Source: a virus. From it: DNA of 55,081 nt. Where the stretch lies: positions 1 to 55,081 of the IMG/VR virus record IMGVR_UViG_3300029787_000060; one strand, written 5' to 3'. The notes beneath the pieces were generated by a model. That model ran no database searches, had not been told where the DNA came from, and saw only the letters and a list, made by a program, of their open reading frames with translations. Below, piece after piece: positions 22,366-47,864 of this stretch (position 1 is its first letter; every line of letters starts with the position of its first letter). A program made the position numbers and the translations under genes.

Positions 22366-22592
22366 TGGAACTTACTGGACAAATTGTTTTTGATGTAATT
22401 ATTTTAATAGCGGGATTTTTGGCAGCGTGGGCATACAATCGTGTATATACCTTGTTGGATAGAATGGATTTAGATCTAAAAAAGGTATCTGAAAAATACG
22501 TTGCTAAAGATGATTACCGTGAGGACATCCGTGAAATTAAAGAGATGCTGGGTGCAATATTTAAGCGACTAGAAAACAAGGCTGATAAATGA
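22365..22592 (+). CDS. Small membrane protein, possible holin accessory
   Basis: A 75-aa protein has one N-terminal membrane segment (QIVFDVIILIAGFLAAWAY) and a charged C-terminal helix DDYREDIREIKEMLGAIFKR that resembles XhlA-type haemolysin/holin accessory proteins. I set the start at ATG 22365, overlapping the previous stop. With the 3TM holin 2 kb downstream it may modulate lysis timing. Confidence 0.62.
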   Translation: MELTGQIVFDVIILIAGFLAAWAYNRVYTLLDRMDLDLKKVSEKYVAKDDYREDIREIKEMLGAIFKRLENKADK

Positions 22593-25422: not shown

Positions 25423-25843
25423 CCCATATATATTTACAGCTACGGTATCCAAAATTGTTGATGGAGACACAATGTATGTTACTGACATCAATTTGGGTTT
25501 TGGGGTTGTTAATCGTGGTGATACTGGGCGGGGTATTTGTTTGCGTCTTAATGGAGTTGATACTCCAGAATCTAGGACAAGAGATTTGGAAGAAAAGCGT
25601 TACGGACTCGCAGCAAAAGCATTTGTCCAAGCGTTCTCTCCGGTAGGCACTGAAGTTACCCTTAGAACCTACGAGAAGGGGAAGTACGGGCGGTGGCTGG
25701 CTGACATTAAGGTAGGAAACAAGTGGTTATGCAAAGAGCTTATAAACAATTATCATGCGGTTCAGTATGAAGGACAGAGTAAAAAAGAAATAAAGAAAGC
25801 TCATCTTGCTAATAGGCTAAAGGTAAATTTAGATGTTGGTTAA
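25403..25843 (+). CDS. Staphylococcal-nuclease-like protein
   Basis: The 146-aa protein carries SNase hallmarks: KIVDGDTMYV (D20/D22), CLRLNGVDTPES (R48, E56) and KGKYGRWLADI (R97). Such calcium-dependent nucleases cut DNA and RNA. It may start at GTG 25403, or at ATG 25409 or 25415, all inside the lysozyme end. No signal peptide is clear. Placement between endolysin and stabilisation gene could mean host DNA clearance at lysis; inference. Confidence 0.8.
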   Translation: MSMQMANPYIFTATVSKIVDGDTMYVTDINLGFGVVNRGDTGRGICLRLNGVDTPESRTRDLEEKRYGLAAKAFVQAFSPVGTEVTLRTYEKGKYGRWLADIKVGNKWLCKELINNYHAVQYEGQSKKEIKKAHLANRLKVNLDVG

Positions 25844-27680
25844 ATATAAGTTTGCTCCCGGCGTTAATAAGGAAGGCACAGAGTACACCGCTGATAGTGG
25901 GTGGTACGACTCAGATAAAATTAGATTTCGTAAGGGCCGTCCAGAGCAGATAGGCGGATGGCAAAAGTATTCATCGAATACATTTCTTGGAATATGCAGG
26001 TCAATACATGATTGGAAAGCTGCTGCCGCTACTGATTATCTGGGACTTGGAACAACTTTAAAATATTACATTAATAGGGGGGATGCTTATTACGATGTCA
26101 CCCCTATCAGAGAAACCACTTCTGCGGGTGATGTTACATTTGCCGCAGTAAATGGAGATGCAACTCTTACTGTCGCAGATACTGGTCACGGGGCGCAGCA
26201 GGGAGACTTCGTTACATACTCTGGAGCTGTCAGTTTAGGCGGCAACATAACAGCAACTGTCCTTAATCAAGAATATCAGATAGCCACTATCATTGATGGC
26301 AACTCGTATACTATAGAAGCAAAAGATACAAGCGGAGCTGAAGTCTCAGCTAATGCGTCTGATACAGGGAATGGCGGCTCTTCAGTCGTTGGGACGTACC
26401 AGATAAATGTAGGTCTAGATACTTTTGTTCCTTCTACTGGCTTCGGTGCTGGAACTTGGGGTTCCTCAGCTTGGGGTGGTTCTACTGCTATAAGCTCTGG
26501 TAATCAACTAAGACTTTATAGTGAGGATACCTTTGGCGATGATCTCATAATAAATCCCAGAGGCGGAGACATTTATTATTGGGACGAAAGCGCGGGACTT
26601 ACAACTAGGGCGGCTACGTTAGCAAGTAATGGTGCTGCGGTAAACTGTCCAATTCTTTCTCTTCAGATAATGGTGTCTGATACGGACAGACATGTCATAG
26701 CTTTTGGAACAAATGCGATAGGTTCTTCAACATTAGACCCTCTATTTATCAGGTGGTCAGACCAAGAAAATCCTTTTGACTGGACTCCGACAGCAACAAA
26801 CACCTCTGGCGGAGTGTCTCTCCCTTCTGGCTCGTTTATTATGGGGGCCGTCAAGACTAGGCAAGAGATACTTATTTTCACAGATAACAGTATTCACTCT
26901 ATGCGGTTTTCTGGGTCTCCATTTACTTATCAGTTTTCGGTGATAAGTGAGGGTTTCTCTATGGTCTCCCCGAAGGCTGCGACTAGCGCGGGAGATGTTG
27001 TTTACTTTATGGATCGTGGTGGATTCTATGTCTACAACGGAGCAATCCAGAGAATAACTTGCTCTGTTCTTGATTATGTATTTAGCAACATGAATCAGTC
27101 TGAGATATTTAAAGTGTTTGCCACTACTAGTGTAGATTTTTCAGAGGTAACTTGGTTTTACCCAGTAGGTTCTGGAAATACAGAATGCACAAACTATGTG
27201 ACATATAACTTTAAAGAAGACTCTTGGTCTGTGGGTACTCTTGATAGGGGCGCTTGGATTCCTGCTAACACCAGAGACTTTCCAATTGCCGCAGAAAATA
27301 CTAGCGCCAATGCAAACTATCTGTATTTTCATGAGCGAGGTTTTGATGCAGACGGTGAAGCTATGAACTCTTACATTGAGTCAGGCGGAATAGAGCTTGG
27401 CGATGGCGAACAGTTTATGTTTATGTCTAGGATGATACCTGACTTTGAGTTCAAAGGTACGGCAGCATCAGCTTCTATGGCGGTCACGGTCAAGGGTAAA
27501 GAGTATCCGCTAGAGGACGCTCAGACACTGTCCACTTCTACTGTGACATCAAGCACGACTCAAACTTTTATTCGCGCTAGAGCAAGAGAAACTATAGTAA
27601 GGATACAGAGTACAGGCACTGGTTATGGCTGGACTCTTGGTGATCTTAGATTTGATATTCGATCTGACGGGAGAAGGTAA
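25833..27680 (+). CDS. Stabilisation protein, P22 gp10-like
   Basis: A 615-aa protein starting with FAPGVNKEGTEYTADSGWYD and a KIRFRKGRPEQIGGWQ strand, typical of a beta-propeller stabilisation protein (gp10 family) that closes the neck and holds fibres. The core repeats around TFGDDLIINPRGGDIYYWD. It overlaps the nuclease gene by 11 bases and the next gene at its stop. Long beta-sheet content continues to a conserved SDGRR end. Confidence 0.8.
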   Translation: MLVKYKFAPGVNKEGTEYTADSGWYDSDKIRFRKGRPEQIGGWQKYSSNTFLGICRSIHDWKAAAATDYLGLGTTLKYYINRGDAYYDVTPIRETTSAGDVTFAAVNGDATLTVADTGHGAQQGDFVTYSGAVSLGGNITATVLNQEYQIATIIDGNSYTIEAKDTSGAEVSANASDTGNGGSSVVGTYQINVGLDTFVPSTGFGAGTWGSSAWGGSTAISSGNQLRLYSEDTFGDDLIINPRGGDIYYWDESAGLTTRAATLASNGAAVNCPILSLQIMVSDTDRHVIAFGTNAIGSSTLDPLFIRWSDQENPFDWTPTATNTSGGVSLPSGSFIMGAVKTRQEILIFTDNSIHSMRFSGSPFTYQFSVISEGFSMVSPKAATSAGDVVYFMDRGGFYVYNGAIQRITCSVLDYVFSNMNQSEIFKVFATTSVDFSEVTWFYPVGSGNTECTNYVTYNFKEDSWSVGTLDRGAWIPANTRDFPIAAENTSANANYLYFHERGFDADGEAMNSYIESGGIELGDGEQFMFMSRMIPDFEFKGTAASASMAVTVKGKEYPLEDAQTLSTSTVTSSTTQTFIRARARETIVRIQSTGTGYGWTLGDLRFDIRSDGRR

Positions 27681-29183: not shown

Positions 29184-31817
29184 ATGCCTGATAGAAGAAC
29201 TGGTGAAGATAATACTGAAGGCCGCGCATTCTCAGATTATGGTACTGCTGGGTTCGGTGTAGGAGAAGTTCTTGGTCGTGAAGCGGCAAAAAGACAACAA
29301 GAGATTTTAACTGGCGCAAAATATTCCGCAAACCAAGCACCTCCGGGTTATCGCCCCGGATTTGATCCAGAGTATTTGTACTTTGGAGATCCAAGATATG
29401 AAGACTATGCAGCTCTTCTTCCGGGGATATATGGCGCTGGATACAATGCCACTAATCCTAATGCCGCCGGAGCGCCTGCCCCGTTAGGCTCTTCTCCGGC
29501 TGGTGGCGTGACAGGATCGATGGGTGTTCCAGCAGCAAATACAGCTCAAGCAGCTTCTGCCGGAGTCTCTTCGCCCGTTCTTAGCACAGAAGACATTCTT
29601 AGAAATTTGCCTAGAAAAGGAAATGATTTTACGCAAGATGACATTAAGAATGCTATGGGGCTTATAGCGGCTGGTGAATACGACATTTATTCTCTGGCTG
29701 ATGCGCTTGAAATAGATCGAAGCTCTGCAATGAGTGCATATAATAAATACCTTAAAGACACTTATGGTGTAGGAACATTTAATCCCAATGTCGATACACT
29801 TTCTCCAGAAAGCATTCAGCAATACTATGGTGTGGCAAATCAACAGGCGTATAGTCCAGAGCAACTATCTAGAATTTTCGGAATACCTCTGGATCAATCT
29901 AGGTCGTTTTTAACGCAACAATACTTTAGTGGTATTGATGTTGATAACGACTATAGCAACGATGAAGCTCAAGCAGTCTATGACCTCTACAGCTCTGGGC
30001 GTATGGGGGCTGTAGGAATATCAAATTACTTTGGCATTCCTCTGACAGATGTTGAGAGGATTCTTGGCGAGATAGGAGATGCTGGTGGCTCTGTTGCTAA
30101 TGTTGGTGCTACTACTCCAGCAGCTACTACAGATACTACTTCAACGGTTTCTTCTGATTCTGGAGATTCATCTACAGCGGATACAACCACAACTACAGTT
30201 TCCAGCCCACTTGCTGGTATAGACGTTGATGGGGATTATTCTCAATCAGAGGCTAATCAAGTCTATGACATGTTTGTATCTGGTCAAGTCACACCTCTAG
30301 ACATATCGACTTACTTCAATCTTCCCTTGGATGAGGTTAATACAGCTCTTTCTGATATCGCTCAAAGCAGAATGCCTCCTACCAATGTTGCGACTGGATC
30401 AACAACTGTTAACCCTCAAGACGTAAGGTCATCTGATAGAGCAAGCGGTGCTGTTAGTCCAATGAGAGGAGAGGACACTGAAGGCGGAGAGGGCTTTACT
30501 CCGCTAGACCTTGCGTTTGACCTTTATCAATCTGGTACTGAACTTTCTACTGAAGAAATTAGAGAAGCTCTTTCTTACGCTCAGGCAAATGGGGTTTCTT
30601 ACGCAGAAATAGATCGTATGTTTGGCGCTCCTGCTGGCAGCGCACAGGATGCAGCGGCTGCTCTAGGTATGGCTGCTAGTGCTGGCGGGATTGTGGGTAT
30701 GGCTGAGGGTAAATCTTTATCTGCTTCCCATCGTAGATCCCCTGATAAGCCATATGTTTTCCCTTATGGGGTAACCGGGATGGAAGAGTCCTTGGATCTT
30801 GTAGATAGAATAACAGATATGCAAGATTCTTTGTCTAATGCAAAAGATCCTGAAAAGAAAAAAATGTTAGAAACAGAATTAGAAATGCTAATTATACACG
30901 GAGCCAATGTTAACGCCGTGCCTTTTGAAAATTTCAGTAATTTCGTTGAAGTGCAACAATTAAAAAATATAACCAGAGATAGTCAAAAGGATGAACTTGA
31001 GAAAGGGGTTATGTCTGGCCTTAAAAGCCTTGGTTTGGCTGAGGGTGGCAAGTTCCCTGACCTTAGCGGTGACGGAGAAGTTACTCAAGAGGATATCCTG
31101 ATTGGTCGAGGTGTGATTGAGAAGGCTGACGGTGGGATTCTTGGGCTAATGAAGAAAGAGCAAAAAGAAACTCCAAAGGGAGCATTGCTTACTGAAACCG
31201 AAAGCTATCTAGAAGCTCAAAAAATACTGAGTAATCCTGACTCAAGTGACAGAGACAAAGCTTTTGCTAAAGGCACGTTAGAGACCCTTAAGCCTCAAGA
31301 GCAAGGCGGCAATATGGACATGAACGCTTTTGCCGAGATGATGCAGCAGTTGGACAAGATCCAAGGCGCAACTAAAGGTATGCAAGAGGGTGGTTTCATA
31401 GGCCGAGAGCAGCTCGACAGCCTTATACAGATGACCCGTGATGCAATCCTTGGTGATGCTGAGAACGCTGACGAAATCATACGAGAGTTTGTTTCTGTCT
31501 TCGGTAACGAGGCGTTTCAACAATTAAGAGATCAAGTGCTTCAGACCCAAGTTCCTGATGCCCAAACAGAGGGAATGATAGAAGGACAGGGCGGAGGTAT
31601 GGATGATGAGGTTATGGGAATGATCGGAAACCAACAGCCAGTAGCTGTGTCCCCCGGTGAATACATAATCCCTGCTGATGTGGTTGCTTCACTTGGAGAT
31701 GGTAGTAGTGATGCTGGAGCAGACAAGCTAGATACAATGCTTGATGATGTCAGGATGGCTAAGACAGGCCGGACTATTCAGCCGGGAAAGATTGATGACA
31801 GGGTTATTCCTGCATAG
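29184..31817 (+). CDS. Large internal virion protein with EF-hand/dockerin-like loops
   Basis: An 877-aa acidic protein. It has repeated helical modules of about 95 residues starting IDVDNDYS (251-257) and IDVDGDYS (346-352), each followed by YDLYSSG or YDMFVSG and a YF..PL block. Residues 626-637 read DLSGDGEVTQED, a full EF-hand/dockerin-type calcium loop. The C-terminus (VSPGEYIIPADVVASLGDG) is highly conserved in marine phage internal proteins. It may act in ejection; calcium could trigger assembly or release. Confidence 0.72.
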   Translation: MPDRRTGEDNTEGRAFSDYGTAGFGVGEVLGREAAKRQQEILTGAKYSANQAPPGYRPGFDPEYLYFGDPRYEDYAALLPGIYGAGYNATNPNAAGAPAPLGSSPAGGVTGSMGVPAANTAQAASAGVSSPVLSTEDILRNLPRKGNDFTQDDIKNAMGLIAAGEYDIYSLADALEIDRSSAMSAYNKYLKDTYGVGTFNPNVDTLSPESIQQYYGVANQQAYSPEQLSRIFGIPLDQSRSFLTQQYFSGIDVDNDYSNDEAQAVYDLYSSGRMGAVGISNYFGIPLTDVERILGEIGDAGGSVANVGATTPAATTDTTSTVSSDSGDSSTADTTTTTVSSPLAGIDVDGDYSQSEANQVYDMFVSGQVTPLDISTYFNLPLDEVNTALSDIAQSRMPPTNVATGSTTVNPQDVRSSDRASGAVSPMRGEDTEGGEGFTPLDLAFDLYQSGTELSTEEIREALSYAQANGVSYAEIDRMFGAPAGSAQDAAAALGMAASAGGIVGMAEGKSLSASHRRSPDKPYVFPYGVTGMEESLDLVDRITDMQDSLSNAKDPEKKKMLETELEMLIIHGANVNAVPFENFSNFVEVQQLKNITRDSQKDELEKGVMSGLKSLGLAEGGKFPDLSGDGEVTQEDILIGRGVIEKADGGILGLMKKEQKETPKGALLTETESYLEAQKILSNPDSSDRDKAFAKGTLETLKPQEQGGNMDMNAFAEMMQQLDKIQGATKGMQEGGFIGREQLDSLIQMTRDAILGDAENADEIIREFVSVFGNEAFQQLRDQVLQTQVPDAQTEGMIEGQGGGMDDEVMGMIGNQQPVAVSPGEYIIPADVVASLGDGSSDAGADKLDTMLDDVRMAKTGRTIQPGKIDDRVIPA

Positions 31818-32275
31818 TGTATATAAGACAACTTACAACTAGTGAAGAAGACTTTAAGAAAGTAGTTGATTTTCTTATAGAAAACTTTGTTCCTGAGCAT
31901 GATATGGGCAAATTAAGTGCCTCTAATTTAAATCTTAAGAAAGCCCTTGATTGGGTTGTCTTTAATATTAAAGAAGCTGCTTTTGTTGTAGAGGATAATG
32001 ATGGCAAGGTTGTTGGTTCTATTGGCTTGAATAGAACCTCGCCTTGGTATTCTGATGCAGAGTATATTTCGGATGGCTGGTTATATGTTCTTAAAGAGCA
32101 TAGGAAAAGCGGCTTGGCAGGAATGTTAATTAACAAAGCAAAAGAATTTGCTGAAGAAAAAAAGTTACCTTTAATTATTGGTATCTTTAGCAAAGAAGAT
32201 GCTATTGCTAAGGCTGATATTATGAACAAACTTGGATTGATTACGGTTGGCGGATTGTTCGCCGCAGGAGTTTAA
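31817..32275 (+). CDS. GNAT-family acetyltransferase
   Basis: The 152-aa protein has the GNAT core: VVGSIGLNRTSPWYSDAEYI, DGWLYVLKEHRKSGLAGMLI (motif A, with the acetyl-CoA loop RKSGLAG) and a C-terminal helix and strand. Substrate unknown. It begins at a GTG overlapping the preceding stop (TAGTG). It is a metabolic-type enzyme embedded in internal virion genes, as in several marine phages, and may modify a phage or host protein. Confidence 0.75.
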   Translation: MYIRQLTTSEEDFKKVVDFLIENFVPEHDMGKLSASNLNLKKALDWVVFNIKEAAFVVEDNDGKVVGSIGLNRTSPWYSDAEYISDGWLYVLKEHRKSGLAGMLINKAKEFAEEKKLPLIIGIFSKEDAIAKADIMNKLGLITVGGLFAAGV

Positions 32276-33307: not shown

Positions 33308-34993
33308 ATGTATAACATCCTTGAGGTTGAGGATAAAATAAAAGGCTTGCCTGATCAGGCTCTTATGAGAGAGGCCCAGTTTCCTAGCGGTGATGTGCCG
33401 CAGTTTCTTGTTGTTTCAGAATTACAGCGCCGGAATGAAATGCGTAAGTCCTATGCAGCAATGCAGGAACCATCTCAGACTGTTCCGGTTGCCCAACAGG
33501 TAGTGGCGGAGGCAGGTCAGGGTATTGCTGGCGTTGTGGGCGGCAATGCTTTGCCTGTCTCTGCTCCTATGCAAGCACAGACCCCAATGGCTGCACCTAT
33601 GCAGTCCTCTATGCCAGCACCTATGCAGCCTCCCGTACAACCTCCTATGCAACCTCCTATGCCACGCCCTCAAGCCCCTGCTGGGATAGTGGGTATGCAG
33701 TCAGGTAGACAGGCTCCCTATCAGCGTCAATATAGGGATTTTGCCGGAGAAGCAAGGGATAGGAGAGAGAGGAAAATTGAAGAGCTTTACAGAGACTTAA
33801 ACCCATCCCAAGCTACTACATACCTTAGCTTGATTGAAAGCGGTGTTGATCCTGAAGAAGCTCTGTTTTCAGTCAGTGATGTTTATAGAACAGATGATAC
33901 GTTAACTGGCGTGGAAGAAATCCAATCTATTCAACCTTTTGACCCTAGTAAAGTTCCAAGCAGAACTGCTGGCCCAATAGGTACTGAGTACGATGATCCC
34001 CTTAATCTAGACCTTACATACGGTGATGGTTTTCCTGTTCCTGTCCCTGACCCTGCTGATCCTCCTCCAGATCCAAGTCAGCTAGAACTTGGCAGTTATA
34101 GGCAAGGGATTATGGATTTAACTAAGGCAGGAAGGGAAGATATTGCAGCATTAAGAGGTCAAATTAATGAACTTGATCCTTATCAAGCAAGTTTTACAGA
34201 GCGTGATTTTATTGCTGATAACATAGATAGGCAGTCTTACATAGATAGATTGTCTAATATTGCAGGAGAGGACATAGCGTCTAGAGAAGTCTTAATTGAT
34301 GAACTTCAAGAGAAGTCTAAGAAGGATGCTCTTAGTGCTTTCCTCATGAGCTTTGGTGCTGGTGTAGCTGGCGGAGACCTTAGCGGTGGAATACAGCAAG
34401 GAAGCAAGGCTGCTCAAGACGTTAAACAAATAGCTGACAAGAGGCTATTTGATGAGCGCAAGGCAATGAGAGATGTCAAGTCTGCTGCTGAAAGAGAAGC
34501 CGTTCAGCTAGGTTTGTCCGCTGAAGAAGCCGCACTTGCTGGGCAGAGGGCAGAGCAGCAGTTTGGGGCTGATCAAGATGCACTCAGAAACACTATTGAA
34601 TTTCAGAACTACACAACATCTAGACAACAATTGCTAGATCAAATTTCTGGAGCGAGAGAGGATGTCACTACCATTGCCACTCTTATGAAAAACGAAGCAG
34701 ATATCATTAATGATGCAAATAGAATTAGGCAAGCTTTTGAGGCTGAGGCTGGCAGAGAAAGAAGAGATATAAGGAACTACATTGAAGAGTTTGTTAAGGC
34801 CCATAGAGAAACCTTGGAAGCATCTCTTTCTGGGATAACTGATCCTTCTTCTGTTACTAACCTTGTTGATTCCTATAGAAAATTGCTTGAGCAGGAGTTT
34901 AATTTGAGAGAAGCTGATGATGAATCTTCTCCTCCGTCTGCGGTAGAAGATCTTGTTTCTTCTATGAGCATTAACAGATCACTCACTAACTAA
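33308..34993 (+). CDS. Internal virion protein with Pro/Met/Gln-rich linker
   Basis: A 561-aa protein with a conserved N-terminus (LPDQALMREAQFPSGDVPQF; VVSELQRRNEMRK), a Pro/Met/Gln linker (about 85-125, repeats around PMQPP), a helical coiled-coil body (about 270-500) and an acidic end. Small Gly/Ala patches (AFLMSFGAGVAGGDLSGGIQ) might touch membranes. ATG has TAGGAGATAAAAT upstream. Probably ejected or structural within the head. Confidence 0.72.
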   Translation: MYNILEVEDKIKGLPDQALMREAQFPSGDVPQFLVVSELQRRNEMRKSYAAMQEPSQTVPVAQQVVAEAGQGIAGVVGGNALPVSAPMQAQTPMAAPMQSSMPAPMQPPVQPPMQPPMPRPQAPAGIVGMQSGRQAPYQRQYRDFAGEARDRRERKIEELYRDLNPSQATTYLSLIESGVDPEEALFSVSDVYRTDDTLTGVEEIQSIQPFDPSKVPSRTAGPIGTEYDDPLNLDLTYGDGFPVPVPDPADPPPDPSQLELGSYRQGIMDLTKAGREDIAALRGQINELDPYQASFTERDFIADNIDRQSYIDRLSNIAGEDIASREVLIDELQEKSKKDALSAFLMSFGAGVAGGDLSGGIQQGSKAAQDVKQIADKRLFDERKAMRDVKSAAEREAVQLGLSAEEAALAGQRAEQQFGADQDALRNTIEFQNYTTSRQQLLDQISGAREDVTTIATLMKNEADIINDANRIRQAFEAEAGRERRDIRNYIEEFVKAHRETLEASLSGITDPSSVTNLVDSYRKLLEQEFNLREADDESSPPSAVEDLVSSMSINRSLTN

Positions 34994-37900
34994 TGCCAAC
35001 TACAATTGTTAACGCACCTGATGGTGGGCTGATAAGCGTCAACCATCCTGAAGGAACTAGCGACCAAGATATTCTGAACTATGCTGCAAGGATGTTCTCG
35101 GAAGATCCTTCTATTTCTCTTCGCCCGGAAGAAGAGAACATCACTCTAACCGGAAGGATTGCTGAGACAGCGAAGGCTGTACCCAGAGGGTTTGCTTCCG
35201 GCTTCCTCACAGCAGCAGAAGGTCTTGCTGAACTCTCTGATGCCGCCACTAACGCCATAGGTCTTGAAGGTCTTATAGATTCCGGTGACGAGAATGCTCT
35301 TGTCTATGGAGCTAGGCAGGCTAAAGAGGCAATCAACTCTACGATAGGGGCTGACAAAGCCTATCAAGACCTGTGGAGTACCAAGTTTGGTGAGGGCTTA
35401 GGTTCCTTTGCCACGTTCCTTACACCCGGCGCGGCATTCAGGCTGGCAGGTAACGCATCAAAAGCAGCAAAAGCAACCACTGGTTTGACTAAGTTAGTTG
35501 GTGCTGGAAGCGCAGCGGAGGCTGCTACTGTTGCAACTCTTGCTACGGGAACTGGTGCTGGAGAGCAGGCACAAAGAATCCAGATGGCTAGAGATTCTGG
35601 CGTTGAGATAAGTCAAGCTCAAGAAGACTCAGCTATTGCCTTAGCTTCCATTGTTGGTCTATCAGAACTAGCCCCTGTAGAAAGGTTGTTTAGAAAGTTA
35701 GACAAAAACCTAGTAGACGATAAGACACTTAATACTATTGGTGACCGAATCAAGTCTGCCCTTGGCACTGGTGGTGTTGAAGCTGTACAAGAAGCTGTTG
35801 CTGGCTTGTCTCAGGACTTGATTGAAAAGAATATATATAACGAGGAGTTGCCAATTGGCGAGTCCTTGTACGATGACTTTACTGTAGGCGGTGCTGTTGG
35901 TTTTGTATCTGACCTAGTTCTAAACGCTGCTGCTGGCAGGCGTAGAGGAGTCTCCAGTGAGACCGAAAGAGAGTATGAAAGAAAGTTAAGAGAAGCTAAC
36001 GCGCAAGCCGCCGAAGATCAGGCGGAACTTGTTAGCAACATAGGCCGTGAAGAAGTCCTTGAACCTCAAGTCATAATGCCTGACCAAGATGACGTTCAGG
36101 GTATGCCTTCTTACGCACGAAAAGTAGCTAGGGATATGGGTCAGAACTTCCCATTGACCACAAGCTTTGGCGTTCAAGAAACAACAGAGACAGTTACCAG
36201 AACTGTAACCAATCAGGCTGGCGAGACTATCCAAAGAGAAGAACAAGTCCCTGCATTTGTAGCGACTGACTCTGATGGCAGGATATACGGCAAGACATTT
36301 CAGAATTATGAGCAGGCAGCAGTTTTTGCTGGCGCTCTCAATGATCAGCTTATCAACAGGGCTGTGACCAATTCAGTATCAGACATTATTGATACCTCTC
36401 CACAGGCTTATGACCAGCCTACCTTCCAAACCCTTTCCTTCTGGGGCAACTCCGCCCTAAATCCAGAGAACAATACTGTTACGTCTAACGCCTTGAATAT
36501 GGCGGCAGGCACAACTATTGATCAGGGTTTTAATGAACAGGAAACCTCTACTGATGCGGCAAGAAGAATTAGCAACTTGGCTGCAAGGGGGCAAGCACCT
36601 GTAAATCCTATGAGTCTTATGACTGCATCACAACGTGCCAACTGGAGCAGGCTTGGCAGTGGTCAGTCAGAAACAGATGTCTTTACTTTTGAAGAAGCTA
36701 AGAAAGAGTTAGGTGATGACGTTGCTAATCTTGCTGATGTGAGAGAAGACTCAACGATAGAGACAGAGACTTATCGTGTTGATAAAGATAACAGGGGCAG
36801 GCCCATAGTGGTTAGCTCTGCTGGTGAAATTATCACACAAAGACCTACTACGCTAGTAGAGCGTAGGGAGAAGAAGGGTCTTGGCAGAACTACAAGAATG
36901 CAGACGGAGCAACAAGCTCAGGCTGTAGCCGCTGGTCTAAACACTATGGCAGGAAGGGCTGTAGATAAGCTTGTATTTCAGGACAGAACTTACGGGCGTG
37001 AAGAGATTAAGAATTTACTGGAAGCCAAGAATGTAACTGACGAGCTTAACTCTCCTCAGATAAAAGCTCTGGCCCAGTCATTCACAGGGAAATCAGGCGT
37101 AGACAAGATGTCTCGCGCTGAGATGAAACTGTTTTACTTGAAGTTACGATCTCTACCACGGTTCGAGGTGGCGACTAGTCTTCCTGTATTTACCCCCAAG
37201 ATATACACAAGCCAGCAGTTTCGTCTGGCCTCTCAGCATGTTGGGCAGAACCCGGATTACACTAACGAGTCTTTGGCTGAGGCTGTTGGTATTAGTGAAA
37301 CTGATCCTCGCTTTGAAAAGAAGATAGAGCAAATCACTGCTGATCTTAATGCTCAAGGGGTAGAGTCCGTAGAGGTTACTGAAGAGGCTGTCATTCCTGT
37401 TGAGCGTAGACTGCCAAGTGCTAGTGAGGAGATTACTCAGCAGCTTGAGAAGCAGCTCTCAGAAGAGATGGATAAGCTTAACCTTGGTGACGTAAGGGTC
37501 AGTGTTCTTCATGCTCTGACCAATGTTGTCAGGGATGCTGATGGAAATCTGGTTCTAGGCGTAAGAAGGTTTGATCCCGCCAGAGACCAAGGAGCTACGA
37601 CTCTTGACCAAGAGGGTAACTTTGTCGCTGACGAGTTGCCTGAGCAAGAGCAAGCTCTCTACTCAAGGAATTTGAACGAAGTATTCTTTGGCGTTGACAG
37701 GCTGCAAAGATTATCTGATGAGGGCGCTACTCCAGAGCAACTGTTTGAGACTGCGAAGTCTCTCCTGAACCACGAGTCAGTACACGCTATGCGTATGCTT
37801 GATCTCTGGACAGCGAATGAATGGTCTAGCCTAGAAAGGCTTGCTAGAACTAAGAAAAATTCGCTTGGTCAAACCTACCTTGAGGCTGCTCAAAAAACAT

Positions 37901-40900
37901 ACAGTGACCTGACTCCCGTGTATCAGATGGAAGAGGCGGTAGCTGAACTAATTCGTGACGGCAGAAACAAATTTACTGGCAAGCCAAGAACTCTGATACA
38001 GAGAATCAAGACATTCTTTGAGTCAATGCTAAGTTTCTTGCGCGGTACAGGGTATACAAGCTTTGATTCATTGATTGGCGATATTGAGTCGGGAACAATT
38101 GGAGCAAGAGACAGAGATCAAGTTAGAACTCTGAGAGCTACAGAAGCTGCGCGAGGCGTTGTCCCAGATCGTGGCATTCTTCCGCGAACCAGAACCACGC
38201 CTAAAGGTGCGGCTAGAGAAAGAAGTGCCATAGATATACCCCGTATAAGGTCAGAGATGAAGGCGAGTGCAGATCCAAATATAGTGGCTTTGGAGTCTCA
38301 GTTATCAGATGATCAGATTAGGGTAATGAGAGGAGCAGCTCGTCCGTCTGGTGACTTCCTTGAGGTGGGGCAGATACAAGCTGTTGCAGAGCAAGCTGAT
38401 CAAGCTCATGCAAGGCTTAATCTTTCCGATCAAATAGATAGTGTGGTTAGTGCAGTCCTGCCTGAAGTTAATAGAAGGCGTGGACGTAAGCCCCCTGTCA
38501 CGGAGGCGCAGGCTAAGAAAGCTGTGCTTGATTTCAGAGCCTCTGTTCCAGAGCAAAAGGGTAAGCTAAGACCAAGAGATACTTTTGATAAAGCTTTCAA
38601 GACATTAAGAAGGGATGACCTTTCTCAAAGAGAGGCTCTCAGTCACAAAGATGTATCTCTAAAAATCCCAGAGATAGCTGTCTCTACCATACTTTTGAAA
38701 GATGGCTTGATAACTAGAAAGCAACGCAATGCAGTTGTTAATAAGTTTAAGCCTGTCACTTCTTATCAATCATTGCCAGACAACTTGCTTACCACAAAAA
38801 AGAGAGCGGTAGATGCGCTTGATGACAGCAAGAAGTCGATGTTTGGTAAGACTAGAAGAGTTATCAAAGACGAGAATCTTGAGTACATAGCTCTACGTTT
38901 AGATATTCCAGCGTATCTTAGAGATGGCGCTTGGGTTGTTACTGCACATAAGCCAAGAGCTGCTCGTCTTAGAGAAGGACGAGGGGCATTTCAGGGGCAG
39001 GCTGGCACACCTATAGGATACGAGTTGGCTATGTCAGTCAATGATGTCTCTTTTGGTACTGGACGAGAGTCTGACTTTGGAAGGAAGGTAGCAAGCGGAG
39101 TAGCCACTGGCGCTGCTACAAAAAATACCTTTGCCACGATAGAGGGAAGGCCCGAAACAGAAAAGAATTATACCTCCCTGCTTAAGGAATCGAGAGCAAT
39201 ACTTAAGGACATGAAGGAAGGCAAACCAACAAACTGGAGACAGGTTGGCTATGATCCTGAACGTCATGCTTACTTTTACGACAGGGCTAACGGTGAACCA
39301 ATCGTTGCCGCTGACAGGGTTATACAGATAGGCCCATTGGTTCTGGCTCAGAACGCTAACGTCAGTCCAACGGGTGAATCAATAAGAGCTACGCAGGAAG
39401 ACTTCGCCTTCTCTCGCACTCCAGTCACTGTTCCCCCTGTTGAGTCAGATGTTCCTGTCTTGCCTATCGGTGATGTAGAGAGAGGATTGTATGCGCTTAT
39501 TTCTGCCGCTGGTGGTAGCCCTACCTCTGAGCAACTTGCTGAGGTTCCCGGCGCCCCCAGAAAACGCAGTAAGGTTAATAAGAAAGGTGACAAAATTCCT
39601 GACAATGAAAGGGACAGCGAGGTAAGGGCTATCTCTCTGGATGAGTTGCGTCAGTACATGAGAGAAGGGCTTGAAGGTTCTGAGAATTTGCAATGGTATG
39701 ACCAGTTTGGTTCTGGTCTTATGGAGATTGTTGGCCCTGCAAACATAGAGGAAGCCTCTGTAATCTTTGGTATAACCTCTCAGCAAAATTCCGCTGAACA
39801 AAACCTAGCCGATACACTTCACATTATGTCCGTTGCTAGACGGATTGATCCTGTTGAGCAGACATCTAAGTTTATGGAGGAAGTGTCTGAAGGGACAAGG
39901 CCCGGAGGCCAGAAGCTAAAGATTACTGGCGATCAGATAAAACGAATAGCCAGAATGTACAAGGAAGGATTTGCTGATGCAGGTCTGAAGACTAGCACTT
40001 ATATGCAATTGATTCAGGACAGGGCTAGGAATAAGTTTAATCCTTTCTCTGTGCAAGATGTTCATATGGCTAGGGTTTTTGGATTCAGAAGGAAAGGCTA
40101 CGACAAGAAAACTGGAAACCTTGTTGATGCTGCTATGATACCCGGAGATTTGCAGTACAGATATGCCCAGTATCTTACTTCATATCTGGCGGAGGAGTTT
40201 AATATCACTCCCAATCAGGCACAGGCTGCGCTCTGGTTTTATGCCAAGAGCAATCTCAGCCCGAAGGCAGATAAAAAGGAAGGTGCTGGTACTTGGGATT
40301 CTGCTAAGAGAAAGTCTGCAAAAGAGATCAACGCTATAGAAGAACAGATTGCTGACGGTACGTTTGATAGAAACGTATCAGTTACTCCCGCTCTCAGGAA
40401 GGGAGTTAGGCCGCGCAATGCTGTCAAGGTAAAGCAGAATGCCTACACAAACTTTATTAACATGCCTGAGCTTGAAGCTCTTGCTGAAGCTAGAGCGCCA
40501 CTAGTCACTGTGTCTGCTAATCCGGGCAATGCCAGAGGTTATGGTTTTCCTGACACTGTCACGATAGATGAGATGTTTGACTTTCACGAGCAGGCATTAG
40601 ATGCAATCACTGACAAGGATGGACAGATACCTTTCCTTAGAAGATTAGGCATAGCTCACAAGATAGAACTCACTGCTGGAACTTATGAAGGTCTTGAGCC
40701 TTCGTTCCAGATCAAACTTCTAAGTGGCAGTAAACCACAGGCTTTGCTTGCCACTAGCATATTGGGTGACGCGCTTCTTCAAGATGCAGCGATTGCCGTT
40801 AAGCCAGCATATAAAACTGGTAATCAGGTAGGCTTGGCTGTCAGAAAGCCTGATGGTTCTGCCTTCACTCGTGCAGAGCTAGAGGCTATATCTACTACAG

Positions 40901-43900
40901 CTAACCCTGAGAAAGATCCAGAGGGTATGAACTTTACTGCGGTCAGGCCAGACACGTTGGTGTTTATGGATGGTAGGACATTTGATCCTAGCACTGCGGC
41001 ATCTTACACAGAAGATATGCTGGAAGAGTTTGGCACTAAGTTGTTGACATCTCTTGACACGGGTTTACAATATGACATTCAAGCATATTATCAGGAGAGC
41101 GATTATGTTGGATCGGAAAGCTATTCAGAAAACATTAGGCAAATTAGGGATCAAGGAAGCGTCCCCGGATCATCCGGTATATTCGACACCCTTGACCGTG
41201 AGCTTTATAAACCGTTCTGGGAAACCTACACCCAAGCAGCAGCGCGAATCGGATTTACTCCAGAAAGCACAGCAAGACCAACAGTAGAAGAGCTAGTTCG
41301 TGCGCCCCTTTCGGACAGGCTTCCTCCGCCTGCACCTATCTCTCAGAATGCAATTGATAAAGCTGTTGAGCAAAACCTTCAGGACGTAGCTGACGCCAAG
41401 TCAGGAGCCGTTCCTCGCCATTCAACCAAAGCCTCACCCGAAGCCCAAGCTGTAGCTAGAGACCCTGAGATAGGCTCTACGATCCCTCCCGGTATGGAGG
41501 ATGCTTACTCCCGCAAGAATGTCCCTGAGTATGAGCCGGACTCTGTAATTCCAAAACTGGTTGATACAAACCCACAAACTCAAACTGCTTTCGAGGTGTA
41601 TGAGCAGGCTACTGGAGACACTAGTAGATGGACGTACTATACAACCAAATTTAGAAAAGCATTTATCAACAAGTATTCGCGTATTGAGTCTTTATCCAAT
41701 GATAAGTATCTAGGTGATGCCGTTGGATATCTGGCTGATACGAGCGCCAATGCAGCACTAATGTTTAAGGACAGGTCTAGAGGTGTTGCTGCTTCCACTA
41801 TTAAGTATGGTACTCCAGTATACAGAGATGGGCTGACTAAGGTTGAAGACTTTGAAAACAGCAAGGGCGATAAGATAGATGGAGTCATTGGTCTACTAGC
41901 CCCTCTTCAGCCAAGCGGAAATCCTTATGGAAAAAATCTGGAGGAAGTTGCACAGGCATATGCTATTGCGAAGCGTGTTAAATACTTACACAGCAAAGGA
42001 AGATACACCGACAAGATTCCTGTTGGAAAAGAAGATGAATACTTAGCGGCACTAGAGAAAGAGGCTGACAAGTACCTCAACGAGAACGGCGATTCAATCA
42101 TACGAGAGTGGTATCAGAACTGGAGCGAATATAATGATGGCATTGTCAAGTTTTTAAAAGACACGGGAGTCATCACTGAAGATCAAGGTTTGGAGTGGGC
42201 GAGTATGTCTTCCTACTATCCGTTCTATATGGAAGCGGATGGCGAGACCCAAGGTGTAAACCTCTTTAGTGGTATGTCTGCCGCACCACAGACTGTTAGC
42301 AACGAAGAGTTTAAGGCGGTAGGTAAGAGCGGTAAGCCTCTCAATGTGTCTATGTTTGATGCAATAGTAAGAAACATTACCGCTGCTATTGATATGGGAA
42401 TGACCAATGTAGCTTACCAGAGAGTGGTAAGAGATCAGGTTCTCCTTGGTCAAGCTAGGGAAATCCCACAAGGCGGTTCTGTAAACAACAAATACACTGT
42501 TAACTTTCGCGTCAATGGACAGAAGAGAACCTTTGAGTTATTTGACCCTCTGACGTTTGAAGCGTTGAAGCCGATCTCTGATGGTGAAGCTTACGAGGTA
42601 ATGGCAACTATTCTCGGCGCTCCTGCAAACTTGCTTAGAGAAACTGTCACAAGAGATCCCGGCTTTATCATAGTCAACATGATGAGGGATACCCTGTCTT
42701 CCTATGTAACATCTGGCTCTAAATATAAGCCTGTCATAGATACTGTTGCTAACTTTGGCAGTGGTATGGAAACCCTAGAAAGGTATGGGATTGTTGGCGG
42801 CTATGATTTGGTAAACGATCCTAAAGATCTTAAGAAGTTTTTTAATAAAGAGTTAAGGCGTAGAGGTCTTGATCCAGACCAAGGTCTAGGTTCTAAAGTT
42901 TTTAATAAAACTCTTGGTTCGGTCTGGGAGATGTTAGGACAAGCCACAACTATGTCTGATGCCGCCACAAGAATGGCAGTTTACAAAGATGTTCTAGCTA
43001 GAACTGGCAACGAGGCGGAAGCTGCATTGCAGGCTATGGAAGTTATCAACTTTGCTAGGCGCGGCTCTAACCCAGTGGCTAGGCTTGCCTTCACAGCTAT
43101 ACCTTTCCTGAACGCAAGGATACAAGGTCTTGATGTTTTTTATAGAGCGTTTGCTGGCAAGTATTCGGCAGACAATGAGGCATCAAGAAAAGCTATCGCT
43201 GGCAGGGCTATAGGAAGAGGCTTGTTACTGACATCGATAACTGGTTTGTACTGGGGTCTTGTCAGTGATGACGATGAGTATAAGTTACAGAGCGATGAGG
43301 TCAGAGATAACAACTGGATCATTCCTACTGGCACTGGTTACCCCATCAAGATACCTATCCCATTTGAAGTTGGTCTTGTGTTTAAGACCATACCTGAGAG
43401 AGCCATAGACGCTGCGTATGGCGAGTCCACTGATGCTAGAGAAATGACTGAGTCTATTAGACGGGGCGTTATGAGTACCCTTGAGGTAAACCCTCTAGGT
43501 ATTCAAGCGTTTGCGCCAATAGTAGAGGCGGCTTTTAATCACAACTTCTACACTGGTAGACAGATCGTCCCATACTATATGGATCAAGGTCTTGAGCGCG
43601 GATTCCAGAGTAGAGTTGGTACTAACAAACTTGCTGAATATGTTGGACAGGCTTTGAATATAAGCCCTATGAAGATAGAACATATTATTTCTGGATATGT
43701 GGGAACCATAGGAGGCTATGGTCTTGACATGATAGACAAGACTTTAAGGAGCGAGGCTCTGGTTGGAGACTTGTCTGAAGCAATGCCTGCTCTTGATATG
43801 CAGCAGTTCCCTTTGATGAAGAGATTCTTTGGAACCAAGGAAGGATCTGGTGTCACTCAAGATTTCTATGAAATAAACAGAGAAGTTAATCGTGTTGTTC

Positions 43901-44196
43901 AGACACTTAACAGCCTCAAGAAGGACGAAAAGACCGAAGAGTTGCAAGCATTCCTAATGGGAAGAGAAGGTTTGTACAGCCTGAGACCCCACGTTAACAG
44001 GCTATCCAAAGTGTTGACCGATAATAGAAACAGAAAGGAAGCCATCATGAGGATGGATATCGACCCCGAAGAAAAGCGAAAGCTGGTTGACGAGATCGAT
44101 GCGTACAATAATGACTACATTGCACCTTACATACCTTTGCTAAGAGAGACCGCAAACCTGCCTAAGACTAGGCTCACGAACCTGTATCTGCAATGA
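34993..44196 (+). CDS. Giant polyvalent internal virion protein with HExxH metallopeptidase site
   Basis: This 3067-aa protein takes 17 percent of the window. It starts with TTIVNAPDGGLISVNHPEGT, a domain typical of marine internal proteins. Residues 927-931 form HESVH in LLNHESVHAMRML, with MEEAVAEL at 979-986 as likely third ligand, a zinc peptidase arrangement. Near residue 1597 a QNSAEQNLADTLHI helical domain begins. Residues about 2530-2720 (RDPGFIIVNMMRDTLSSYV; later VINFARRGS...) match the large polyvalent protein associated type LPD38 as I recall. A hydrophobic segment lies near 2740. It is probably ejected, comparable in role to T7 gp16. The end overlaps a leftward gene by 23 bp. Confidence 0.78.
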   Translation: MPTTIVNAPDGGLISVNHPEGTSDQDILNYAARMFSEDPSISLRPEEENITLTGRIAETAKAVPRGFASGFLTAAEGLAELSDAATNAIGLEGLIDSGDENALVYGARQAKEAINSTIGADKAYQDLWSTKFGEGLGSFATFLTPGAAFRLAGNASKAAKATTGLTKLVGAGSAAEAATVATLATGTGAGEQAQRIQMARDSGVEISQAQEDSAIALASIVGLSELAPVERLFRKLDKNLVDDKTLNTIGDRIKSALGTGGVEAVQEAVAGLSQDLIEKNIYNEELPIGESLYDDFTVGGAVGFVSDLVLNAAAGRRRGVSSETEREYERKLREANAQAAEDQAELVSNIGREEVLEPQVIMPDQDDVQGMPSYARKVARDMGQNFPLTTSFGVQETTETVTRTVTNQAGETIQREEQVPAFVATDSDGRIYGKTFQNYEQAAVFAGALNDQLINRAVTNSVSDIIDTSPQAYDQPTFQTLSFWGNSALNPENNTVTSNALNMAAGTTIDQGFNEQETSTDAARRISNLAARGQAPVNPMSLMTASQRANWSRLGSGQSETDVFTFEEAKKELGDDVANLADVREDSTIETETYRVDKDNRGRPIVVSSAGEIITQRPTTLVERREKKGLGRTTRMQTEQQAQAVAAGLNTMAGRAVDKLVFQDRTYGREEIKNLLEAKNVTDELNSPQIKALAQSFTGKSGVDKMSRAEMKLFYLKLRSLPRFEVATSLPVFTPKIYTSQQFRLASQHVGQNPDYTNESLAEAVGISETDPRFEKKIEQITADLNAQGVESVEVTEEAVIPVERRLPSASEEITQQLEKQLSEEMDKLNLGDVRVSVLHALTNVVRDADGNLVLGVRRFDPARDQGATTLDQEGNFVADELPEQEQALYSRNLNEVFFGVDRLQRLSDEGATPEQLFETAKSLLNHESVHAMRMLDLWTANEWSSLERLARTKKNSLGQTYLEAAQKTYSDLTPVYQMEEAVAELIRDGRNKFTGKPRTLIQRIKTFFESMLSFLRGTGYTSFDSLIGDIESGTIGARDRDQVRTLRATEAARGVVPDRGILPRTRTTPKGAARERSAIDIPRIRSEMKASADPNIVALESQLSDDQIRVMRGAARPSGDFLEVGQIQAVAEQADQAHARLNLSDQIDSVVSAVLPEVNRRRGRKPPVTEAQAKKAVLDFRASVPEQKGKLRPRDTFDKAFKTLRRDDLSQREALSHKDVSLKIPEIAVSTILLKDGLITRKQRNAVVNKFKPVTSYQSLPDNLLTTKKRAVDALDDSKKSMFGKTRRVIKDENLEYIALRLDIPAYLRDGAWVVTAHKPRAARLREGRGAFQGQAGTPIGYELAMSVNDVSFGTGRESDFGRKVASGVATGAATKNTFATIEGRPETEKNYTSLLKESRAILKDMKEGKPTNWRQVGYDPERHAYFYDRANGEPIVAADRVIQIGPLVLAQNANVSPTGESIRATQEDFAFSRTPVTVPPVESDVPVLPIGDVERGLYALISAAGGSPTSEQLAEVPGAPRKRSKVNKKGDKIPDNERDSEVRAISLDELRQYMREGLEGSENLQWYDQFGSGLMEIVGPANIEEASVIFGITSQQNSAEQNLADTLHIMSVARRIDPVEQTSKFMEEVSEGTRPGGQKLKITGDQIKRIARMYKEGFADAGLKTSTYMQLIQDRARNKFNPFSVQDVHMARVFGFRRKGYDKKTGNLVDAAMIPGDLQYRYAQYLTSYLAEEFNITPNQAQAALWFYAKSNLSPKADKKEGAGTWDSAKRKSAKEINAIEEQIADGTFDRNVSVTPALRKGVRPRNAVKVKQNAYTNFINMPELEALAEARAPLVTVSANPGNARGYGFPDTVTIDEMFDFHEQALDAITDKDGQIPFLRRLGIAHKIELTAGTYEGLEPSFQIKLLSGSKPQALLATSILGDALLQDAAIAVKPAYKTGNQVGLAVRKPDGSAFTRAELEAISTTANPEKDPEGMNFTAVRPDTLVFMDGRTFDPSTAASYTEDMLEEFGTKLLTSLDTGLQYDIQAYYQESDYVGSESYSENIRQIRDQGSVPGSSGIFDTLDRELYKPFWETYTQAAARIGFTPESTARPTVEELVRAPLSDRLPPPAPISQNAIDKAVEQNLQDVADAKSGAVPRHSTKASPEAQAVARDPEIGSTIPPGMEDAYSRKNVPEYEPDSVIPKLVDTNPQTQTAFEVYEQATGDTSRWTYYTTKFRKAFINKYSRIESLSNDKYLGDAVGYLADTSANAALMFKDRSRGVAASTIKYGTPVYRDGLTKVEDFENSKGDKIDGVIGLLAPLQPSGNPYGKNLEEVAQAYAIAKRVKYLHSKGRYTDKIPVGKEDEYLAALEKEADKYLNENGDSIIREWYQNWSEYNDGIVKFLKDTGVITEDQGLEWASMSSYYPFYMEADGETQGVNLFSGMSAAPQTVSNEEFKAVGKSGKPLNVSMFDAIVRNITAAIDMGMTNVAYQRVVRDQVLLGQAREIPQGGSVNNKYTVNFRVNGQKRTFELFDPLTFEALKPISDGEAYEVMATILGAPANLLRETVTRDPGFIIVNMMRDTLSSYVTSGSKYKPVIDTVANFGSGMETLERYGIVGGYDLVNDPKDLKKFFNKELRRRGLDPDQGLGSKVFNKTLGSVWEMLGQATTMSDAATRMAVYKDVLARTGNEAEAALQAMEVINFARRGSNPVARLAFTAIPFLNARIQGLDVFYRAFAGKYSADNEASRKAIAGRAIGRGLLLTSITGLYWGLVSDDDEYKLQSDEVRDNNWIIPTGTGYPIKIPIPFEVGLVFKTIPERAIDAAYGESTDAREMTESIRRGVMSTLEVNPLGIQAFAPIVEAAFNHNFYTGRQIVPYYMDQGLERGFQSRVGTNKLAEYVGQALNISPMKIEHIISGYVGTIGGYGLDMIDKTLRSEALVGDLSEAMPALDMQQFPLMKRFFGTKEGSGVTQDFYEINREVNRVVQTLNSLKKDEKTEELQAFLMGREGLYSLRPHVNRLSKVLTDNRNRKEAIMRMDIDPEEKRKLVDEIDAYNNDYIAPYIPLLRETANLPKTRLTNLYLQ

Positions 44197-45952: not shown

Positions 45953-46582
45953 CTATTGAAACTTCTTTATTTCGTTAGTACACCATAACCGAAAGTCTTG
46001 AGCCTCTTGCTCGTTAAGCTTTGCGGTTACGTTTGCGTTCGCGCTTAGGCAATCGATGATCTGCTTCTTGCTTTCGGCGCTTGTAATCATATCTTTAAGA
46101 CCGCCAAGCGTTAGCTCTGTGCGCTCCTCATCTTCCCCTGCAACAGGCTGTGATGGTACTGAATGATCCATCCCTCCTTCTGCCTGTCTCCACAGCTTAA
46201 TCCCAAGACCAAACATGCCAAGACATTTCACAAGACATCTCATCCTTGCGTCCTGTATTTGCCTGCTCGTTGGGTTAACTACTGAAGCTTTTGCTTTACC
46301 ACTCTGCATGACTGGCAACCACATTGATCTCTCAATGTAGTCCTCGTGTATCATCTCGCCACCGAGGTGAACCCTGACAGTACAGTTAACCATAACTGAA
46401 CCATCTGGGTGTCGAGTCTCATCGTGGAATGTGTAGAAACTAGCGGGATAATGAGTAACGAATATAGACCAAGCGTCTGCCCAGTTGAGATATGAATTAC
46501 CATCATACCCTGTCTGAAGCATCCCGGTTAGATCCATATCGTACAGCTTAAACCACATCTCCCGTATTCTAGTTTGTGACAT
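45953..46582 (-). CDS. Single-strand annealing protein, DUF1071/Sak type
   Basis: A 209-aa protein (from ATG 46582; GTG 46588 is also possible) has YLNWADAWSIFVTHYP near residue 28 and MWLPVMQSGKAKA, then NPTSRQIQDARMRCLVKCLG and MFGLGIKLW, the conserved blocks of the DUF1071 (Sak) annealing family. It would anneal complementary single strands in a lambda Red-like pathway with the nuclease upstream. A helical C-terminal domain may bind SSB. Confidence 0.82.
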   Translation of the reverse strand: MSQTRIREMWFKLYDMDLTGMLQTGYDGNSYLNWADAWSIFVTHYPASFYTFHDETRHPDGSVMVNCTVRVHLGGEMIHEDYIERSMWLPVMQSGKAKASVVNPTSRQIQDARMRCLVKCLGMFGLGIKLWRQAEGGMDHSVPSQPVAGEDEERTELTLGGLKDMITSAESKKQIIDCLSANANVTAKLNEQEAQDFRLWCTNEIKKFQ

Positions 46583-46784
46583 GCCCACTCTCCCGTATCA
46601 TCTTCACAATTTCATTTCCTGCTAACTTGTAGAAGAGGGAGATGCTCATATCTATCTTTGTTCTCTTGCGGTTTACAAATATCAAAACCTTCTCCCCATC
46701 AATTTGAAACTGAACGGCATCGTTTTTGAACTGACCCATAATGCCTATCACCTTCCTGTAAAAATCTTCATCCTGTTCGATCAT
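46569..46784 (-). CDS. Small hypothetical protein
   Basis: A 71-aa protein with DEDFYRKVIGIMGQFKNDAV and a basic KRTKIDMSISLF segment. The ATG at 46784 has GGAGGAACA directly upstream, which fixes the start; a longer frame to 46868 exists but lacks a ribosome site. It overlaps both neighbours by about 15 bp. Function unknown. Confidence 0.6.
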   Translation of the reverse strand: MIEQDEDFYRKVIGIMGQFKNDAVQFQIDGEKVLIFVNRKRTKIDMSISLFYKLAGNEIVKMIRESGHVTN

Positions 46785-47646
46785 TGTTCCTCCATTGATC
46801 GCAAAAATTACTGACCCTACAATAATCTTGCAGACATCTTGTCGGCTCACCTTCTCGGTGTTCGACAAACAATTTCTCTGAGGAATCTTTGCAGTGTTTA
46901 TCTGCGTCTTCCTCGCTGTCGTACAATTTTATTGCCCTTTTCCTGCCCTTCTTCATGACAGCCCATTTCTCACCACGCAACCAACGCTGCTTGTCTGTGC
47001 AAAATGCAATTGGTTCGCCCAGCATCTCAGCTAATCGAGCATCAGCGTGTTGATCCAGATACCCCTCAATAATACGGGCCTGCTCCTCTGGTTCAGTGAT
47101 AGGAATGTCAATGATAACTATGGGAGCTTGCGGGTAATTGGCATTGTTCTCTGCCTCCCTCTGCTTCCAGTCCCGCAGCACTGCCACTATCTGTAGTTCA
47201 GAGATCTCTTTATTCTTGGCGTTTCTTACAAGCCAAGCATAACAATTGAGCTGATCAACCCATTCCTCTTTGCCGTAAATAACAGACCAGACTGACGTAC
47301 ATTTGTAGTCGGCTATGGATATAGTGCCGTCCGGGTTTACTTTCTGCACATCGATAGCGCCAGAGATCTTCCAATCTTTGTGCGTAATGTGCAGCCGTTC
47401 TTCTAAGATATAGTCCCACGAAGCTTCGGCCTCAAACATATTGTGAACCGCAGTCCCAAGGACAGACCAAAGCTTGTCACTCACATCTTCAGTCAACTCT
47501 TCCCAGTATTTCTTTCTCAAGATATTTATTCGGGGCGAATCAATCATAGTGGTCACGCTAATCTCAGCGTCACCCATTGAGTAATTGTCTTTGGATAGAG
47601 CCTTATACACAGGCTCTGGTAGATTATGTTTATTAGTTATCTTCAT
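46768..47646 (-). CDS. RecB/Cas4-like PD-(D/E)XK exonuclease
   Basis: The 292-aa protein (ATG 47646 overlapping the previous stop as ATGA; an ATG at 47667 has a ribosome-site-like AAGGAG too) shows the RecB-type core: VLGTAVHNMFE (H68), ISGAIDV (D99), IADYKCTS (D113, K115) and a following QLNCYAW motif. A C-x4-C-x5-C cluster near the end (TRCLQDYCRVSNFC) suggests an iron-sulphur or zinc site as in Cas4/AddB. It probably makes the 3' single strands for annealing. Confidence 0.82.
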   Translation of the reverse strand: MKITNKHNLPEPVYKALSKDNYSMGDAEISVTTMIDSPRINILRKKYWEELTEDVSDKLWSVLGTAVHNMFEAEASWDYILEERLHITHKDWKISGAIDVQKVNPDGTISIADYKCTSVWSVIYGKEEWVDQLNCYAWLVRNAKNKEISELQIVAVLRDWKQREAENNANYPQAPIVIIDIPITEPEEQARIIEGYLDQHADARLAEMLGEPIAFCTDKQRWLRGEKWAVMKKGRKRAIKLYDSEEDADKHCKDSSEKLFVEHREGEPTRCLQDYCRVSNFCDQWRNNDRTG

Positions 47647-47864
47647 AAGACCCGGAACACCCGGCATCCTTCTCCTTCTCGGTGTACAGTAAACCTCTTA
47701 CCGCTCTCCTTGTTTGACCTTATACTTGCCTGAGAGCGCACGTTTGTTTCTTTCATGTCATCAGTGGGAACCAGTACGCTATCACCGATCTCCATCTTCT
47801 CGAATGGGATCAGCGTCTGCCTCACCTTTGGTCTTGGCACATCCTTCTCTATCTCTAGACTCAT
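47643..47864 (-). CDS. Small conserved phage protein
   Basis: A 73-aa protein with LIPFEKMEIGDSVLVPTDD and a basic KESGKRFTVHREGEGCRVFR end. Similar small proteins occur in many phages of proteobacteria; no function known. AGGAG precedes the ATG by nine bases. It overlaps the next upstream gene by 83 bp in another frame. Confidence 0.65.
   Translation of the reverse strand: MSLEIEKDVPRPKVRQTLIPFEKMEIGDSVLVPTDDMKETNVRSQASIRSNKESGKRFTVHREGEGCRVFRVL

Follow-up and report, generated by a model that had tools for sequence, protein, structure and literature searches.

The 55,081-base virus record IMGVR_UViG_3300029787_000060, analyzed here as a whole (the window), encodes a protein of 3,067 amino acids, P0001, which, judged by alignment with its relatives, is modular, with constant ends around a swapped cargo. 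On balance, we consider it probable that P0001 is a packaged and ejected polyvalent protein whose zincin-like peptidase cuts its own polypeptide and thereby frees this cargo. The gene takes up 9,204 of the 55,081 bases, or one sixth of the window. Its size, as well as the presence of an HExxH peptidase site, a Glu-rich motif downstream, several unrelated domains, and an LPD38-like end, had already been noted in a preliminary description of this DNA, and all of these points are borne out below. The features of the protein are as follows.

34993..44196, + strand: polyvalent protein gene, P0001, 3,067 amino acids; a single intact open reading frame (ORF) with an ATG start
34993..37437, + strand: residues 1-815, the constant N-module up to the peptidase; relatives whose cargo is unrelated are 28-40% identical here
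35170..35982, + strand: residues 60-330, the best-conserved N-module segment (columns of alignment A9 average 60% identity); hydropathy shows hydrophobic stretches at 215 and 296
37438..38172, + strand: predicted zincin-like metallopeptidase domain, residues 816-1060; alignment A6, AlphaFold2, Foldseek, and VIA-align
37771..37785, + strand: HESVH, residues 927-931; H, E, and H invariant in 59 rows
37930..37935, + strand: E980-E981, candidate for the third zinc ligand, on a helix after HExxH; invariant, model helix 160-179
38092..38133, + strand: junction motif GTIGARDRDQVRTL, residues 1034-1047, the last conserved segment before the cargo and a hypothetical processing site
38620..39417, + strand: cargo domain A, residues ~1210-1475, RLDIPAY...QVGxDPxRHxYFYDR...IQIGPLV; 20 invariant columns in 41 rows
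39418..41262, + strand: cargo domain B, residues ~1476-2090; 61% identity to relative L179, 57% to L142, and 52% to L128
41263..44196, + strand: constant C-module, residues 2091-3067; 36-45% identity in relatives with other cargo
43270..43749, + strand: LPD38 domain, residues 2760-2919; Pfam PF18857, E=1.8e-37, score 129.7 bits (cut-off, 27)

Constant ends and an exchangeable middle

Relatives with an unrelated middle align with residues 1 to 1060 and 2091 to 3067 of P0001, mostly at 28 to 45% identity. The first of these regions, the N-module, ends in the peptidase, and the second, the C-module, carries LPD38. Between them lie approximately 275 to 1,500 residues, as seen in relatives of varying distance with ORFs complete at both ends. 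The order differs in two further relatives (L028 and L034) and in Ruegeria phage 45A6, where the peptidase comes late, just before the C-module. Comparison of P0001 with its three closest relatives indicates purifying selection in every module (ratio of nonsynonymous to synonymous substitution rates [dN/dS], 0.04 to 0.12). In the comparison with one of them, L001, dS varies several-fold from module to module within the gene, as is expected with recombination.

In relatives, the same slot is occupied by ART-PolyVal (ADP-ribosyltransferase), zeta toxin, ASCH, DUF4258, or DUF7178 domains, and a Pfam search returns no named family for the middle domains of P0001. Cargo A, a domain of 220 residues that also occurs in loci L045 to L124, has relatives in viral contigs that number at least 565 and are often parts of very long proteins; it has no clear Pfam family, and 25 of 41 rows show a weak, distant link to PF25735 (phage L5 gp82). 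Cargo B aligns at 25% identity to L184 across the DUF7178 match of the latter, and appears as distant kin of DUF7178-bearing cargo. Its relatives came from the loci fetched for the peptidase, and a query with the single sequence found no match in phage records and, in viral contigs, nothing beyond close copies. Since P0001 and L179 are 61% identical in cargo B, compared with 39% in the N-module and 44% in the C-module, cargo and ends have either different histories or very different constraint.

Further observations concern the middle region. Residues 1061 to 1118 of P0001 match L179 in another place (residues 320 to 374 of its ORF) at 55% identity, which suggests a mobile linker segment. In phages CRP-207 and ctYwJ313, cargo A is found in a protein of 900 to 1,000 amino acids encoded between the portal and major capsid genes. 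A joint alignment of peptidase and cargo A was discarded, as cargo rows fell on peptidase columns.

A conserved candidate metallopeptidase site

HESVH is the sole HExxH in P0001, where approximately 0.008 such motifs are expected from composition, and the Glu-rich motif downstream of it reads QMEEAVAE (residues 978 to 985). In the alignment of 59 relatives, which spans 19 to 90% identity, five columns and no others are invariant: H927, E928, H931, E980, and E981. The peptidase relatives were gathered from viral contigs with several queries, and two of the searches used the motif itself. Because some of the 59 relatives had been picked by such motif-containing patterns, we obtained an unbiased sample with residues 60 to 330 of the N-module as the query, a segment that excludes the peptidase. 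The peptidase is present in 42 of the 47 usable distinct relatives recovered in this way, and every one of the 42 retains both HExxH and EExxA. The preliminary description had made its reading depend on conservation of HExxH, and conserved it is. The peptidase profile matches 91 distinct relatives, 89 of which have HExxH; the two others are an ORF truncated at a contig end and a very weak profile match.

This domain is not filed in the MPTase-PolyVal family (PF18818), because the Pfam profile has no match in P0001 at E<=1 nor in the fragment at E<=10, the genome search for this family having been run without a ringing control. LPD38-type proteins in bacterial genome contigs (L284 to L350) mostly lack the P0001-type peptidase, which is therefore not tied to LPD38 itself. 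About 15 of these bacterial proteins carry a HEWxHALD-like motif instead, resembling the other polyvalent MPTase type of Iyer et al., in which an Asp follows HExxH.

Predicted fold of the peptidase domain

The AlphaFold2 model of residues 816 to 1060, built with 59 sequences, has a predicted local distance difference test (pLDDT) score of 81.3 and a predicted template modeling (pTM) score of 0.78. It runs from a helix through strands to a helix that bears HExxH (model residues 99 to 120), then through more helices to the one that bears the EE pair (160 to 179). The invariant H927, E928, and H931 are thus placed on a helix, and E980 and E981, either of which could be the metal ligand, on a second, C-terminal helix, as in zincins. 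In addition, the secondary structure of the model agrees with the three-stranded sheet and N-terminal helix of zincins, and its layout with the zincin-like MPTase core as Iyer et al. describe it (PMC5512222).

In Foldseek, the seven best matches are all chains of the minigluzincin selecase, with weak E values of 0.46 to 1.5, and VIA-align returns lethal factor domains, IrrE/PprI, and selecase at Z scores of 5 to 6 (maximum, 6.0). Since no PDB match is individually significant, the zincin-like fold is supported, not proven, and residues 816 to 1060 are a putative metallopeptidase domain that would bind zinc and cleave proteins. A first AlphaFold2 run with 24 sequences (pLDDT 57, no PDB match) was discarded, and a direct search of the P0001 sequence against PDB sequences gave no match. 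The peptidase and cargo-A profiles matched helical, designed, or unrelated proteins in the PDB, and nothing usable was retained.

A lineage without peptidase or cargo, and a conserved junction

The remaining 5 of the 47 N-module relatives lack the peptidase. Four of them are complete proteins of 1,879 to 1,934 amino acids, the shortest found; any complete N-module relative that has the peptidase reaches at least 2,262. In these four proteins, the match to the N-module ends at approximately residues 790 to 829 of P0001 and is followed by a distant LPD38-type C-module, with no cargo in between. The peptidase-less proteins are 57 to 90% alike and represent one lineage.

Where the peptidase is present, the junction motif GxIGxRxRxxxRT follows it directly, at an almost constant spacing that is most often 60 residues past the EE pair; of 70 N-module relatives, 44 contain the strict pattern. 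Sequence similarity stops after this motif. As a hypothesis, its position suits a processing site, but it could equally be the end of the domain.

Probable self-processing and alternative roles

The build of P0001, with the N-module and zincin-like peptidase followed by cargo A, cargo B, and the LPD38 C-module, may be translated into a sequence of events. The long polypeptide would enter the capsid and be ejected along with the DNA, its constant ends most likely serving packaging and ejection and the cargo being the part that would act in the host. The metallopeptidase, situated at the boundary of N-module and cargo, would most likely cut its own polypeptide and so free the cargo, either before packaging or after entry. 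For P0001, zinc binding, proteolysis, self-cleavage, and the place and time of the cut are what we infer. Carriage in the virion and ejection are suggested by the gene order and by gp69 of Burkholderia phage JC1, a protein that the C-module profile A8 finds at E=1.5e-9 and that mass spectrometry detected, through 51 unique peptides, in virions purified with CsCl (PMC9144972).

Self-processing was proposed and favored as the role of polyvalent peptidase domains by Iyer et al. on the basis of the processing of phage P1 DdrB (PMC5512222). We favor it over a target in the host because the peptidase is constant while the cargo is swapped, and is absent only in the lineage that has no cargo. The preliminary description had pictured P0001 as an injected multi-enzyme effector whose metallopeptidase could cut a host defense or cell-wall protein. 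The large multidomain phage protein encoded in the late block, its conserved zincin-type site, and LPD38 all stand, whereas the peptidase as a host-cutting effector fits the pattern just described less well and appears unlikely to us. Some of the fold neighbors found by VIA-align are indeed proteases with foreign or regulatory proteins as substrates, and cutting of host proteins is listed as a possible role by Iyer et al. (PMC5512222). However, the parts that target the host are those expected to be exchanged, and the peptidase instead belongs to the constant N-module, is kept whichever cargo follows, and is missing where the cargo is missing.

The domain might also have ceased to be a peptidase or have a mainly structural part in folding, packaging, or ejection, an explanation that we judge unlikely. 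In phage N4, encapsidation depends on the region with the HExxH domain, and the protein is still uncut when packaged (PMC5512222); the passages found in the N4 virion RNA polymerase structure paper describe the HExxH-bearing C1 domain and report no proteolysis. In P0001 and its very divergent relatives, however, invariance extends to all five catalytic or ligand residues, beyond what is expected of a purely structural domain, and a dN/dS of 0.05 to 0.11 counts against a lost peptidase function. It is more improbable still that the peptidase processes other virion proteins at assembly, such as the neighboring ejection proteins: its gene shares one block with theirs and it would be packaged together with them, but the link that we observe, in a comparison that for the peptidase-less lineage covered the proteins and not their neighboring genes, is to the cargo of the polypeptide itself and not to genes nearby.

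Several points weigh against self-processing of an ejected protein. Both the virion location and the self-cleavage of P0001 are predictions. Because the HExxH-bearing virion RNA polymerase of N4 is packaged unprocessed (PMC5512222), the site in P0001 may become active late or never. For the model of residues 816 to 1060, no PDB match reached an E value of 0.001, and the VIA-align Z scores may reflect a common arrangement. As the peptidase-less proteins are so alike, their shared lack of peptidase and cargo should be counted as a single evolutionary event. Finally, the candidate cleavage motif is a conserved segment that may simply cap the domain.

A further-reaching idea, possible but held only tentatively, is that the P0001 family forms the phage equivalent of polymorphic toxins, with fixed ends for packaging and ejection and an exchangeable, toxin-like payload that the zincin would release by cutting at GxIGxRxRxxxRT.

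Genomic context

Terminase, portal, head, adaptor, and tail genes lie upstream of P0001 on the same strand, as do ejection genes, which places it among late virion genes. The block that ends in P0001 comprises, in order, a virion structural gene, two smaller genes, an 877-amino-acid gene, a GNAT acetyltransferase gene, a DNA-ejection-like gene, and a 561-amino-acid gene (positions 33308 to 34993), whose stop shares a base with the start of the P0001 ORF, the first base of the latter. Three genes of this block have matches as follows.

25833..27680, + strand: virion structural gene, first of the P0001 block; phrog_3287, E=4.2e-69, and 32% identity to the "needle head" protein of phage Pag-Yong1
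32278..33297, + strand: DNA-ejection-protein-like gene, 339 amino acids; phrog_4287, E=3.1e-13, and 29% identity to a 316-amino-acid gene of Pag-Yong1
33308..34993, + strand: late gene of 561 amino acids immediately before P0001; weak match (E=0.005), in the position of a 533-amino-acid gene of Pag-Yong1

The GNAT acetyltransferase gene (31817 to 32275, + strand) inside the ejection block is an accessory gene, found in only 7 fetched loci compared with more than 100 for its neighbors. Phage JC1 likewise has an acetyltransferase at a similar place. Elsewhere in the late gene block, a class 3 lipase domain (PF01764, E=5.2e-19) is encoded at 22589 to 23362 (+ strand). Two nearby genes at 11345 to 12040 and 12354 to 12995 (+ strand) both match the SU10 adaptor family (PF24175) and are probably a duplicated pair. 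On the opposite strand, a Sak-type single-strand annealing protein (PF06378) adjoins a PD-(D/E)XK nuclease (PF12705) at 45953 to 47667 (- strand). No terminal repeats were found in the window, and the contig may therefore be incomplete.

Comparison with known systems

At the level of gene order, the late block upstream of P0001 matches that of Planktothrix phage Pag-Yong1, with a partial match for the 877-amino-acid protein and a weak one for the 561-amino-acid protein. At the level of fold, the nearest structures in Foldseek are the minigluzincins (selecase, jannalysin, and abylysin), which share with P0001 a minimal HExxH and Glu metallopeptidase fold but are stand-alone archaeal enzymes, with 9 to 16% sequence identity to the P0001 domain and E values above 0.4.

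The virion RNA polymerase of N4 is a giant ejected protein, as P0001 would be, in which an HExxH domain precedes a large helical C-terminal part. In a profile comparison with P0001, the HExxH strand-helix unit aligns with a probability of 26%. An N4-type RNA polymerase was rejected as an identity for P0001, since PF21894, PF21769, PF21867, and PF21624 are all present in the N4 protein and none is found in P0001.

The DarB-like proteins JC1 gp69 and Bcep22 gp75 have the C-module and LPD38 in common with P0001 and are also encoded by the last large gene of the late block, but they carry methylase/helicase and lytic transglycosylase-like domains, without a relative of the P0001 peptidase. The neighboring genes of JC1 show a similar order only, with no convincing homology to those of P0001: gp64 matches the 561-amino-acid gene at E 0.0067, and gp68 gives a short partial match to a 109-amino-acid gene at E 6.5e-5, with positions that do not correspond. 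The 3,913-amino-acid protein of Ruegeria phage 45A6 (L007) has a peptidase of the same family (34% identity over 139 residues) followed by LPD38, with methyltransferase and GNAT domains before the peptidase and not after it.

P0001 belongs to a known kind, the polyvalent proteins, among which zincin-like peptidase domains have already been described (Iyer 2017). Like the phage-type members surveyed by Iyer et al. (PMC5512222), it is a large protein of late genes that combines at least two unrelated domains in one very long polypeptide, here the zincin-like domain, two cargo domains, and LPD38; it differs in that its peptidase has no Pfam MPTase-PolyVal match and its cargo domains no named function. 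What we add is the constant and variable build of this clade, a single lineage in which peptidase and cargo are both absent, and a conserved segment at the junction, which are leads and not proof of a mechanism. With its constant ends, many payloads, compact predicted peptidase, named candidate junction, and natural peptidase- and payload-less lineage, the clade offers a clean setting in which to test the self-processing proposed in 2017, and its payload site is a place to seek uncharacterized phage effectors, cargo A included.

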